A program made the position numbers and the translations under genes. Positions 3,546 to 8,402 of a stretch of 64,000 nucleotides of DNA are shown here, in pieces. Source of the stretch: Lagierella massiliensis. GTDB taxonomy: Bacteria > Bacillota > Clostridia > Tissierellales > Peptoniphilaceae. Location: positions 76,739-140,738 of the forward strand of contig NZ_CYUO01000004.1 in the NCBI RefSeq assembly GCF_001407835.1, in the 5' to 3' direction. Within the stretch, counting starts at the first letter, position 1. Every line of letters begins with the position of its first letter. The notes under the pieces are model-generated. The model made no database searches, had not been told where the DNA came from, and saw nothing but the letters and a program-made list of their open reading frames with translations.

Positions 3546-5453
3546 ATGGAAATAAAAAAATATAAAGAAGACTCAGTTGATGTATTAGTTGTAGGTGCAG
3601 GACATGCAGGAACAGAAGCTGCTCTTGCAACTGCAAGACTGGGACTTAAAACAGTTATAGTAACAATGAGTTTGGATTCCGTGGCTGACCTTCCATGTAA
3701 TCCAAATATTGGTGGTACAGGCAAAGGACATCTTGTTAGAGAGATTGACGCCCTTGGCGGACAGATGGCTCTAATCATAGACAAGACATTTATTCAGTCA
3801 AGAATGTTAAACACATCTAAGGGACCAGCTGTACACTCCTTGAGGGTACAAGCGGATAAGCCTGCCTACCATAGAGAGATGAAGAAGGTACTTGAAAACA
3901 CAGAGAATTTAGACTTAGTTGAAGGTGAAATCACAAAGATAAATGTAGAAGACAAAAGAGTCGTTTCTGTAGAGACTTTAAATGGTGCAATTTATGAAAC
4001 AAAAGCGGTAATTCTTGCTACAGGAACATATTTAAAGGGACTTATACTTCAAGGAGAACTCCAAATAGAGTCTGGTCCCCATGGTTTAAAATCATCAAAA
4101 TACCTTTCTAATTCTTTAAAGGAACTTGGCATAGAACTTAGAAGATTTAAGACTGGAACGCCTGCAAGAGTTCACAGAGATAGTTTAGATTTTTCTGTAA
4201 TGGAAGTTCAACCAGGAGATGAAGAAATTATACCATTTTCATTTATGAATTTTGGTAAAGATATTAGCAAGAAGCAAGAAAATTGCTATCTAACATATAC
4301 AACAAAGGAAACTAAGAAGATAATTGAGGACAATTTGCACAGAAGCCCAATGTATGCAGGCATTGTAAAGGGAGTTGGGCCAAGATATTGTCCATCAATT
4401 GAGGATAAAGTCGTTAGATTTAGCGAAAGAGACGAGCACCAGGTATTTGTTGAGCCTGAAGGTCTTGACACAAAAGAGATGTATATTCAGGGGGTTTCTT
4501 CAACTTTACCTGAAGATGTTCAAAAAGAGATGTATAAGACCATTATAGGATTCCAAAACATGAAATTTATGAGGTCAGCCTATGGAATAGAGTATGATTG
4601 CATTGATCCGACAATTTTAAAGAGAACCTTGGAACATCAAGATATAGATGGGCTTTATTTTGCTGGTCAAATCAATGGCTCATCAGGATATGAAGAAGCT
4701 GCAGCACAGGGACTTATGGCAGGTATAAATGCATATTTAAAAATAAAGGGGAAGAAACCTTTCATACTGGACCGTTCAGATGCATATATAGGAGTTTTAA
4801 TTGACGACTTGGTAACAAAGGGAACCAACGAACCCTATAGAATGATGACATCAAGGGCAGAGTATCGTCTAACACTTAGACAAGATAACGCTGATTTTAG
4901 ACTTACAAAATATGGCTATGACATAGGTCTTGTCTCAGAAGATAGAATGGAAAAGACTAATAAAAGGCTTAAAGCCGTTGAAGATGAACTTAAAAGGCTT
5001 GACTCCATAAAAGTAAATCCAAGTGAAGAAAATAATAAAATTATTGAAAGTCTTGGTTCTACAAAGCTTCAAAAATCACTTAGTTTGACAGAGCTTATTA
5101 GAAGACCAGAACTTGACTATGAAAAAGTGAAGGTATTTGACGAAGAAGCTTCAAAACTTGATAGAGAAATAAAAATTCAAGTACAAACCCATATTAAATA
5201 TGAAGGATACATTGAAAAACAAAAACAACAAATCGAAAGATTTAAAAAACTTGAAAGAAGAGATATAAGCTTTATTAATGACTATAGTGAATTAAAAGGT
5301 CTTTCTAATGAAGCTGTACAAAAATTAAATCAAATAAGACCTGATTCACTCGGACAGGCAAGTAGAATTTCTGGTGTTAGTCCCGCAGACATAAATGTAA
5401 TCCTTATTTACCTTGAAAGCAGAAAGAGGAATAAACATGAACAGTCTAAATAA
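3546..5453 (+). CDS. mnmG: tRNA uridine 5-carboxymethylaminomethyl modification enzyme MnmG (GidA)
   Basis: FAD enzyme partner of MnmE in wobble-uridine modification. 635 residues. The N-terminus carries the dinucleotide-binding motif [12 protein letters not shown], followed by the GidA signatures [22 protein letters not shown] and [17 protein letters not shown]; the C-terminal helical domain ends with [18 protein letters not shown] use the ATG at 3546, which matches the usual short N-terminus; a TTG at 3531 would add five residues and overlap mnmE. The 3' end overlaps rsmG by 17 bases. Confidence 0.97.
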
Positions 5454-6144
5454 AGTAATGAATAAAGAAGGCATTGAGTTAAAAGAAGACTGTTTAGAAA
5501 AGTTTGAAAACTTTAGACAAACACTTCTTGAGACCAATAAGTATTTGAATCTTACCTCAATAACAGATGAAGAAGAAGTAAACTACAAACACTTTTTAGA
5601 TTCGCTTCTTCCATTGCAAAAGATAGAATTTAAAGAAAATTCAAAAGTTATAGATATAGGAACTGGTGGAGGATTTCCTGGACTTCCAATGAAATTTTAT
5701 AGAGATGATTTAGAAATAACTCTATTAGACTCATTAAACAAAAGAATAAAGTTTCTAAAAGATACTATATATAAAATGAAATTATCCAATATAAAAGCAA
5801 TTCATGGGAGAGCTGAAGAACTTGGAAGACAAAAAGAATATCGTGAAACATATGACTATGCAATTTCAAGAGCGGTTTCAAGACTTAACACATTGGTTGA
5901 GTATAGTTTACCATTTGTAAAAGTTGGAGGATATTTTATATCTATGAAAGGACCAGGAGGAAGAGAAGAGGCTGAAGAAGCAAAAAATGGGATTAAGTTG
6001 TTAGGTGGAGAAATCACAGATATAATTGAATATCAACTTGATTATGAAGACTCTGATAGAACTCTTGTTGTAATAAAAAAAATATCCCCCACCTCAAAAA
6101 AATATCCACGAGGTGGAGGAAAACCAAAAAATAAACCATTATAA
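5437..6144 (+). CDS. rsmG: 16S rRNA (guanine527-N7)-methyltransferase RsmG (GidB)
   Basis: SAM-dependent methyltransferase acting on G527 of 16S rRNA. 235 residues. The SAM motif [15 protein letters not shown] is at about residues 69-83 and the C-terminal [15 protein letters not shown] is typical. The ATG at 5437 has an AGAGGA six bases upstream inside mnmG; an upstream TTG at 5413 is less likely. In many Firmicutes noc-parA-parB follow this gene. Here they do not, although parS-like sites are nearby. Confidence 0.96.
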
Positions 6145-6163: not shown

Positions 6164-6195
6164 ACCCTCAAAGGAAATTCCTTGAGGGTTATTTT
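6164..6195. terminator. Bidirectional terminator between rsmG and the convergent beta-propeller gene
   Basis: Stem built on ACCCTCAA / TTGAGGGT extended by GGAA / TTCC across a bulge, with T-rich flank on the plus side. It overlaps the 3' end of the minus-strand gene, so it can serve both convergent units. Confidence 0.75.
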
Positions 6196-7315
6196 ATTCT
6201 AAAGGAGAAAGATTTTTAAAGTCAGGTCCTTTAAGTAGAGAAATAAAAGATCGCTTCAATTTATCAATGGATGAATAATATAAAAATACTGTATCATCCT
6301 TTACCATAAAAGTAGACTTATAAATTAGCCAATTATCAAAACTTGCTTCAGAAGGGTCCAAAATTTTAATAGGGTTTATGAAATTAATTCCATCCTTTGA
6401 GGTAAGAACAAATAATGAAGAAGTATCCATTTTGCCATCAGGACAGTTCATAGTTAAACAATAATAAATATTTTCTATTTTTTTTACTTCCAAATGCCAA
6501 GGATTGTAGTTTGTCCAAGATCCCTTCTCCAAATTCATTGGTACAACTGGAGTAAAAGTTTTTAAATCCTTTGACTCAGTATAAACATAAGCATCCTCCC
6601 CTATGTTCATATTTTTACGATAATATATCTTATAAATACCATTTTCATAAATGACTGATGGAGCTCCAAGACCATATCCACTTGTTCCAAAATCCATTAT
6701 AACCTCGGGTTCTGTAAAAGTTTTTAAATCTTTAGTAGTTATTCGCAAAAGTCTTGAAAGCCTTGTTTTTTTATTGGATTCTCTATACCATAGTTCTAAA
6801 GTATCATCTCTTTCAAATAGACACACATCGGAGAGATGGCAGTCGTTTTCAGGTAAGGCAAGAGGATTTCTAACATCTAATAGAGGTTTAAAATTAATTC
6901 CATCATCAGATACTACAATACTTGGGTTTTCAGTAGAATCGTTTAAAAAACTATATGGTGTAAAAGCTAAAATATATTTATATCCAAATTTGCCATCTGA
7001 GTCATAGACGATAGATGGATGGATTGCCTGGTTATTTGATTCAATATATGTAGGAATTTCCAAATGACTTTTTGCATTGAGCAAAAGAGCGTCATTAACT
7101 AATTCAGACCCTATATAATTCTTTTCATCTTCAATGACTTCTTCCGTAGGTAAAAAGTTAGAAGGCTCTAAGTTTTTTTCAGTTGTATTAACATTAATAA
7201 TGCTATTATTTCCAGAATGAATTGTACTATATTTATTAATGTAGATAGTAGCCCCAATAATAGCCAAGGATAAAACGCATATAAATAAAAATTTTATTTT
7301 TCCCAAAAGTATCAC
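6194..7315 (-). CDS. Membrane-anchored beta-propeller protein, glycosidase-like (GH43/32-type fold)
   Basis: 373 residues with one N-terminal hydrophobic segment (residues about 6-23), so probably secreted or anchored outside the membrane. The rest shows repeated blades of the type AHPSIVYD, NPSIVVSDDGINF, GLGAPSVIYENGIYKIYY, YNPWHLEV and LFVLTSKDGINF, spaced about 50-60 residues apart, which is the pattern of five-bladed propeller glycosidases (GH43/GH32/GH130 relatives). I cannot assign a substrate and I cannot identify the full acidic catalytic triad by eye. The start is uncertain: GTG at 7315, or TTG at 7306, the latter with a better-placed GGGTGAT. It is convergent with rsmG and next to the DnaA-box region. 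Confidence 0.6.
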   Translation of the reverse strand: MILLGKIKFLFICVLSLAIIGATIYINKYSTIHSGNNSIINVNTTEKNLEPSNFLPTEEVIEDEKNYIGSELVNDALLLNAKSHLEIPTYIESNNQAIHPSIVYDSDGKFGYKYILAFTPYSFLNDSTENPSIVVSDDGINFKPLLDVRNPLALPENDCHLSDVCLFERDDTLELWYRESNKKTRLSRLLRITTKDLKTFTEPEVIMDFGTSGYGLGAPSVIYENGIYKIYYRKNMNIGEDAYVYTESKDLKTFTPVVPMNLEKGSWTNYNPWHLEVKKIENIYYCLTMNCPDGKMDTSSLFVLTSKDGINFINPIKILDPSEASFDNWLIYKSTFMVKDDTVFLYYSSIDKLKRSFISLLKGPDFKNLSPLE

Positions 7316-7377
7316 CCATTAAAGAATACCATATTATAGTGATTTTAAATATTACAAATTTATTACAATATAGCAAT

Positions 7378-7410
7378 TGTGGATAACTATGTGGATATCA
7401 TTGTGGATAA
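7378..7410 (-). promoter_or_regulatory. Three phased DnaA boxes
   Basis: TGTGGATAA, TGTGGATAT, TGTGGATAA on the plus strand at 7378, 7390 and 7402: two perfect and one single-mismatch copy of TTATCCACA read on the minus strand, at a 12-base period. Confidence 0.75.
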
Positions 7411-7561
7411 GTTTGGTTGTAGATACTTAAAATAACTTAAATAAAAGAGTGAGTTGAAAAAAATCAATTAAAATTCTTGGAAAATAGCCATTTAATTTAA
7501 ATGGAAAACTCATAAGAGCTAAATAAAAAAATTTAGTTAAGAACTTTTAAAATTAAAATTT

Positions 7562-7570
7562 TGTGGATAA
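7562..7570 (-). promoter_or_regulatory. DnaA box
   Basis: TGTGGATAA, perfect match to the DnaA consensus on the minus strand, 160 bases beyond the triplet and in the same orientation. Confidence 0.65.
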
Positions 7571-7662
7571 CTGGTTCATTTTTAAGAGAAAAATATGTAT
7601 GAACAATTCGTCTTAAATTGACAATTCAAATTTTAATTTTACAATTAATGATTATAAAGTAA

Positions 7663-7678
7663 TATTTCACGTGAAACA
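7663..7678. promoter_or_regulatory. parS-like site (one mismatch)
   Basis: TATTTCACGTGAAACA, one base different from the ParB binding palindrome TGTTTCACGTGAAACA. Confidence 0.75.
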
Positions 7679-7729
7679 ATAACGAAAATGCAAATAAAAA
7701 AATCATTATAAAGTTTTTTTACATTAAAA

Positions 7730-7745
7730 TGTTTCACGTGAAACA
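7730..7745. promoter_or_regulatory. parS site (perfect)
   Basis: TGTTTCACGTGAAACA, identical to the Firmicute ParB-binding consensus, 67 bases from the first copy and just past the 3' end of the cinA-like gene. Confidence 0.85.
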
Positions 7746-7752
7746 AAAAGTC

Positions 7753-8295
7753 CTATACTGAATATACTTTTCCAATATTAAGTTTGTATCCTTCATACTC
7801 TGTTATAACCTTATGACTTAAATAAAATGAAAGATTAACAACATTATGCCTAACTTCGTTTCTGGTACCTTTAAGCATTAATTTATAAATTTTTTCAATT
7901 TCTTTATATTTTATTCCAAGATAAACTAAACCACTATTTTCACCAGGTCCTGCATACCCTGTTGCAATTATATTTAAATCTGATTTTGAAATTTCACTTA
8001 ATCCATGTAACATTTCCGCAGCTGTTTGAGCACTTACAGCGGTATGTTTTGACAGTGTTTCACGTGAAACATTTAATAGTCTCGTTTTAGTTTCTTCTGT
8101 GTAAGTTACAGCGCCCATTTCTAATACATTACTTGCTCCTGCTATATTAGCTATGGATGCAGCGATTAGTCCAGCTGTAAGTGATTCTCCAGTAGAAATA
8201 GTTATATTATTTTCTATTAGAAATGGAACAAAATTTTCTTCCAAATTTATTTTATTTTCTACTTTATTAATCTCCTTAATCACATTGTATTTCAT
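7753..8295 (-). CDS. CinA C-terminal domain protein (nicotinamide-nucleotide amidase, PncC-like)
   Basis: 180 residues, single CinA_C domain. The family deamidates nicotinamide mononucleotide to nicotinate mononucleotide in pyridine nucleotide salvage. Signature stretches are STGESLTAGLIAASIANIAGASNV, GAVTYTEETK, the VSAQTAAEM segment and ATGYAGPGE. It lacks the molybdopterin-binding N-terminal half of full CinA, as do PncC-type proteins. The ATG at 8295 is preceded by GGGTGAT at good spacing; a GTG at 8307 is possible. A perfect parS site (8056-8071) lies within the coding sequence, over codons reading VSRET. Likely monocistronic. Confidence 0.85.
   Translation of the reverse strand: MKYNVIKEINKVENKINLEENFVPFLIENNITISTGESLTAGLIAASIANIAGASNVLEMGAVTYTEETKTRLLNVSRETLSKHTAVSAQTAAEMLHGLSEISKSDLNIIATGYAGPGENSGLVYLGIKYKEIEKIYKLMLKGTRNEVRHNVVNLSFYLSHKVITEYEGYKLNIGKVYSV
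8056..8071. promoter_or_regulatory. parS site (perfect, inside the cinA-like gene)
   Basis: TGTTTCACGTGAAACA within coding sequence, third copy within about 400 bases. parS sites in Firmicutes often lie inside origin-proximal genes. Confidence 0.85.
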
Positions 8296-8402
8296 TTTAT
8301 CACCCACATAGATTATAACCCAATTAATTTGATTTAAAAACCTTTGTTATATTGACTGTCATGTTATATAATGGTGAATGGACAAAATAGGAGTTGATAG
8401 AA

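Follow-up and report, generated by a model that had tools for sequence, protein, structure and literature searches.

The intergenic gap downstream of rsmG in Lagierella massiliensis holds four DnaA boxes in a single orientation, separate from the bipartite oriC that flanks dnaA and close to it. The boxes themselves are confirmed. We tentatively propose, at a little under even probability, that they form an accessory, origin-proximal DnaA-box cluster restraining initiation, a third beside the two of oriC. What makes the cluster interesting is its position beside the predicted centromere. The site lies at C4:84116-84308, within the 64,000-bp stretch of DNA that was analysed here (C4:76739-140738, referred to as the window). 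The genome comprises 1.83 Mb in five contigs.

A phased DnaA-box array downstream of rsmG

Four same-orientation DnaA boxes, three of them at an exact 12-base period, followed by an A+T-rich tract in a 437-base gap, had been described in a sequence-only reading of the window, and all of these elements were recovered. Boxes 1 to 3 (7378-7386, 7390-7398 and 7402-7410) follow one another at exact 12-bp steps while box 4 (7562-7570) is an outlier, all four being on the minus strand. Boxes 1, 3 and 4 read TGTGGATAA on the plus strand and TTATCCACA, the full consensus, on the minus strand. Box 2 reads TGTGGATAT and ATATCCACA, respectively; it is one base off consensus and is not matched by the pattern TTWTNCACA. 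The stretch from the array to the outlying box (7411-7561) is 19% G+C, and the gap as a whole (7316-7752, 437 bp) is 21% G+C compared to 31.5% window-wide.

Two minus-strand genes flank the gap. The one at 7753-8307 encodes a CinA-family protein (PF02464 match). The product of the other, at 6194-7315, is probably exported, as suggested by its N-terminal sequence; its likeness to glycosyl hydrolase family 43 is weak, the PF04616 match (E=1.2e-6, 28.5 bits) being under the curated cut-off of 32.2. The genes to the left had been said to point towards the site. This holds for rsmG (gidB; 5437-6144, plus strand, PF02527 match, start codon uncertain) and the genes preceding it, but not for the adjoining gene 6194-7315, which is on the minus strand and points away.

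We then compared the boxes with chance expectation. The loose DnaA consensus is not enriched window-wide (7 matches versus 10.2 expected), and thus only the clustering of the boxes is unusual. The strict box is present in 35 copies in 1.83 Mb, versus 17 for the reversed word, and nine of the 35 fall within 10 kb, divided equally among the dnaN-dnaA gap, the dnaA-rpmH gap and the array cluster (three each). When 35 sites were placed at random, a triple within 193 bp was obtained in 3 of 20,000 trials; when the bases of the gap were shuffled, two boxes were obtained in 0 of 20,000. Together with the permuted words of the family survey described below, these results indicate that a DnaA-box cluster outside oriC exceeds chance. 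A looser scan for clusters (at least three near-consensus boxes, neighbours no more than 100 bp apart) picked up both oriC gaps of this genome and not the array site. It flagged the site in both sister species, the array of this genome being the smallest of the three.

Location of the replication origin

The sequence-only reading had also considered the site origin-like and possibly part of a bipartite oriC, and had proposed GC skew and the mapping of dnaA as checks. Both checks point elsewhere. dnaA (C4:74649-76037, minus strand) lies just left of the window, as does dnaN, also on the minus strand, and does not adjoin the array site. The cumulative GC-skew minimum, computed over C4:1-200738 of the 757,038-bp contig, is at C4:76454, and the site is therefore not at the skew switch. 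dnaA is flanked on both sides by strict boxes, the dnaN-dnaA and dnaA-rpmH gaps having three each. These two gaps make up the bipartite origin, in its usual arrangement around dnaA, and the array is a third group outside it. dnaA, the bipartite oriC and the local skew minimum lie 7.7-9.6 kb left of the array, just outside the window, with the nearest strict oriC box at 7,753 bp from the array, which places the cluster close to oriC.

The layout of the basal unwinding system, as described in PMC8287927, is a DnaA-trio run beside a DnaA box, and oriC2 of Clostridioides difficile is reported to have the same kind of layout (PMC7561715). Following the former, we searched for a trio run within 16 bp of each box. 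In the dnaN-dnaA gap, the run TAG TAG TAG TCG TAG TAG TAC, with five in-frame TAG, lies beside a box. Each of the four boxes at the array site has a single in-frame TAG, a common chance value: among 20,000 random places, 7,214 had one and none reached five. The in-frame TAG count was used besides an unbroken-run score, which, owing to the single TCG within the oriC run, discriminated poorly between the sites. Under a looser NAN rule, the unbroken run was 2.0 at box 7562 (the 95% point of random places) and 3.0 at the oriC box (the 99% point). The trio run in the dnaN-dnaA gap is present in three genomes of this genus and in three of the sister genus.

Thus, with dnaA and the skew minimum left of the window and a trio run present in the dnaN-dnaA gap but not at the array, the array site is rejected as the origin, and the case cautions that a cluster of DnaA boxes with A+T-rich DNA need not be one. 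The genome has, around dnaA, a bipartite oriC with DnaA-trios of the type known from B. subtilis and Clostridioides difficile. The array has the same box sequence as such origins but lies 7.75 kb outside and is without a trio run. Since oriC is left of the window, forks should cross the array rightwards, in the direction of rsmG.

parS sites and the distribution of the array

Three parS-like sites, absent from the sequence-only reading, lie beside the cluster: one at 7663-7678 (TATTTCACGTGAAACA, one mismatch; C4:84401-84416), one at 7730-7745 (the perfect palindrome TGTTTCACGTGAAACA; C4:84468-84483) and one at 8056-8071 (perfect, within the cinA-like gene; C4:84794-84809). A whole-genome search allowing up to two mismatches found parS in these three places only, all beside the array, and the first begins 93 bp past the last DnaA box (7562-7570). 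parB (C4:5232-6068) and parA (C4:6073-6837), both in locus L006, lie on the opposite side of oriC from parS, about 78 kb away. A parS distance of 8-10 kb from oriC is described as usual for B. subtilis and Caulobacter (PMC7671480).

An MnmG comparison gave Mediannikoviicoccus vaginalis (95%) as the closest named relative, followed by a Lagierella massiliensis MAG (89%). NCBI taxonomy assigns Mediannikoviicoccus to the Peptostreptococcaceae and Lagierella to the Peptoniphilaceae, yet the matching genomes (L010, L011) were grouped in one genus. We compared the present genome (G000) with its genus-mates G083 (a MAG of 65% completeness) and G084, and with three genomes of the sister genus g30 (G087, G088 and G089). 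Within the genus, the same gap holds three strict boxes in G000, six in G084 and five in G083, all in the same orientation. In all three genomes the boxes precede three or four parS sites, one of which, a perfect one, is inside the CinA-like gene. In G083 the array comprises five units, three of which have decayed, with an exact period of 12 bp; that of G084 has four full boxes and a weaker one, with 12-bp pairs flanking a broken unit. In both sister species, the counterpart of box 7562-7570 in the alignment is a full box. In alignments where repeats can be placed favourably, box letters were identical to those of the nearest relative at 36 of 36 positions (one box apparently being aligned through a gap) versus 252 of 372 other gap positions, and to those of the farther relative at 34 of 36 versus 265 of 372. 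The contrast was weaker when the two sister species were compared with each other (47 of 54 versus 277 of 395).

None of the three sister-genus genomes was found to have a comparable box cluster. Two of its parS loci were read, L111 and L112, and neither has a strict box: in L112, parS lies beside CinA-WalJ-RlmH-TtcA-flavoprotein genes and in L111 beside TtcA-flavoprotein genes, the names TtcA and flavoprotein being those we presume from the look of the sequences. In G089, none of the 32 boxes listed, out of 34 strict boxes, is on the parS contig. The idea that the boxes travel with parS is therefore not supported. As the sister genus has parS without boxes, the array was probably gained in this genus.

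Two of the g30 genomes show parAB and parS split as here, with parS farther from rsmG. On the dnaN side of dnaA, parB lies at a distance of about 150 kb in G087 and 88 kb in G088, and parS lies 76 kb and 15 kb past rsmG, respectively; in G089, dnaA, parB and parS are on different contigs. A parS variant, TGTTTCACATGAAACA, occurs beside perfect sites in four genera (L010/L044, L048, L062, L112).

The survey was extended to the family. Of its 128 genomes with an RsmG match, 101 were examined, and the 7 kb after rsmG amounted to 674,454 bp, 93 genomes contributing at least 6.9 kb. Thirteen of the 101 have two or more strict boxes within 200 bp (this genus, 3; g36, 7 of 14; g35, 1 of 3; g19, 1 of 1; g4, 1 of 5), and no such pair after rsmG was found in the other 88. 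For 400 permuted words, the mean was 0.05 genomes and the maximum 4; the survey DNA holds 54 boxes in total, whereas the permuted words averaged 7.4 and never exceeded 29. The ten clusters found in the four other genera (loci L049, L052, L070, L075, L097, L099, L102, L129, L135 and L145) lie 1.3-2.0 kb past a ParB match. In the three g36 genomes read closely they are between convergent genes, and in these and in the g4 genome read closely the cluster precedes a minus-strand gene, which we take to be holin-like.

In the other families of the order, none of 59 genomes (50 with at least 6.9 kb) has a box pair, and boxes total 9 versus a permuted mean of 5.4. A ParB-like match, in some cases possibly the ParB relative Noc, follows rsmG in all 59, within 7 kb in 54 and with ParA also in 53. 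Within the family, 48 of 61 loci have a ParB match no more than 7 kb past rsmG (L078 ends early), and parABS after rsmG is thus probably ancestral there. In an MnmG-based tree covering 61 genomes, of which 10 have boxes (three of the 13 box genomes, L129, L135 and L145, being left out), the box label needs at least six changes, which may mix gains and losses. This genus forms a clade next to the box-less sister genus and apart from the g36/g35/g4/g19 group. One family-wide ancestral cluster is thus not supported, and the data are most simply explained by a gain in this genus that is independent of the clusters past parB.

Possible roles of the array

Among the roles that the sequence-only reading had offered, that of a DnaA-titrating cluster is the best supported, although we infer both the binding of DnaA and its effect on initiation. 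DnaA would probably bind the phased boxes head to tail in a short cooperative row, and the 12-bp spacing in a single orientation would suit such side-by-side binding. Lying about 8-10 kb from oriC, the site would be copied right after initiation, and the DnaA held there would double early, which may lower free DnaA at oriC and thereby restrain re-initiation. Without a trio run, the array should not melt DNA itself.

Precedents are known from other bacteria. B. subtilis lacking six DnaA-box clusters outside oriC is reported to initiate early, and one restored cluster to relieve this in part (PMC5295017 and PMC13220808, after Okumura 2012). Those origin-proximal clusters, as the reviews present them, likewise lie outside but near oriC and apart from the unwinding region; here, by contrast, the array is phased at 12 bp on one strand, sits beside parS, was probably gained within one genus and has a predicted role. 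datA and DARS of E. coli also bind DnaA at a distance from oriC and set its activity, the comparison being one of resemblance. Other observations temper the reading. According to PMC5295017, B. subtilis has no identified clusters that play a significant role, unlike E. coli. About tenfold more DnaA is described as causing no over-initiation in B. subtilis (PMC13220808), making simple titration less convincing as a general rule for Firmicutes. Moreover, the cluster is missing from the sister genus, and no such box pair was found in 88 of 101 family genomes or in 59 of 59 genomes of other families; hence it is not generally needed.

The proximity to parS raises another role, which we consider unlikely: DnaA bound to the array would act on the adjacent ParB-parS, rising DnaA preparing the centromere for segregation as at Caulobacter parS. 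There, DnaA is described as binding parS, and DnaA levels too low for replication start as still able to start segregation (PMC6399470). In B. subtilis, ParA is reported to act on DnaA (PMC5295017, PMC13220808). As in the Caulobacter crescentus centromere (Mera 2014, via review), DnaA boxes lie directly beside parS near oriC. In the genome, parS sites (at most two mismatches) number only three, and the first of them follows the last box at 93 bp; this neighbourhood is kept in all three genomes of the genus, and, parAB being about 78 kb off, the cluster sits with the parS sites and not with the par genes. Ten of the 13 box clusters of the family lie 1.3-2.0 kb past parB. A looser precedent is provided by cisII and cisMP of Deinococcus radiodurans, in which repeats binding DnaA and ParB likewise share one intergenic element (PMC7671480). 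These elements, however, are described as lying upstream of parAB and serving as origins for secondary replicons, and their boxes as non-canonical and overlapping with 18-bp iterons (PMC7671480), whereas the boxes here are canonical, apart from parS and no origin. Caulobacter itself belongs to an unrelated phylum; in the present genome parAB is far off, the boxes are seemingly younger than parS, and the case is known from sequence only. By a criterion of our own, which is not a published one, boxes linked to parS should accompany it in close relatives, and in the sister genus they do not: parS in L111 and L112 lacks a strict box, and the link is thus not an old one. Such a box pair is missing from 88 of 101 family genomes, and, as parS at 8-10 kb from oriC is usual according to PMC7671480, the adjacency may be a coincidence. 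Less likely again is a broader version, i.e. a replication-segregation switch of Firmicutes in which an iteron-like array was built onto the centromere after parAB had left, coupling the level of DnaA to ParB-parS, with relatives converging by way of a cluster past parB. A limited literature search for a comparable clostridial DnaA-box/parS cluster gave one match, on Paracoccus plasmids, and an earlier description is possible.

With a gene start 63 bp downstream, the position of the array fits transcription control equally well. The array could be a DnaA-controlled operator that represses or activates the minus-strand gene 6194-7315 with the replication cycle, a role we also regard as doubtful. 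In all three genomes of the genus the array is 60-74 bp upstream of the predicted start of this gene, and a weak promoter-like match (9/12, minus strand) overlaps the boxes here. The trmE-noc operon of B. subtilis is located near oriC. It is among several operons that B. subtilis DnaA appears to repress directly (PMC4447404). Against such a role, 247 bp separate the gene start from the outlying box, the promoter scan was no richer than shuffled DNA (17 versus 14.1, sd 4.1), the best promoter match in the gap (11/12, 7618-7645) is on the plus strand and directed away from the gene, and the comparable clusters of the three g36 genomes read lie between convergent genes. Homologues in the sister genus (four loci in three genomes, about 3.9 kb each) have neither a strict nor a one-N box, and on the same ground the idea that the boxes travel with the GH43-like gene is not supported. 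Six of 130 family genomes were found to encode the GH43-like protein, all of them belonging to this genus or its sister, and in G088 one of its two copies has an in-frame stop. The 7618-7645 match consists of TTGACA, 16 bp and TACAAT and is antisense to the CinA-like gene.

It is highly improbable that the site serves as an origin, working or auxiliary, or that it loops onto dnaA as a third oriC arm: boxes and A+T-rich DNA do share one gap, of 21% G+C versus 22% in the two oriC gaps, and its three strict boxes equal those of each oriC half, but one in-frame TAG per box compares with five at the dnaN-dnaA gap (a count reached at 0 of 20,000 random places), the skew minimum is elsewhere, and the cluster is missing in the sister genus, where the dnaA-flanking boxes and the trio run persist.

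An accessory cluster restraining initiation is therefore the reading we retain. DnaA-box clusters outside oriC may tune replication, and their origin is little charted. The present one can be placed on a tree, being present in three genomes of its genus and absent from three of the sister genus. As it adjoins the predicted centromere, the array also provides a natural test of whether there is any action of DnaA on ParB-parS outside Caulobacter.
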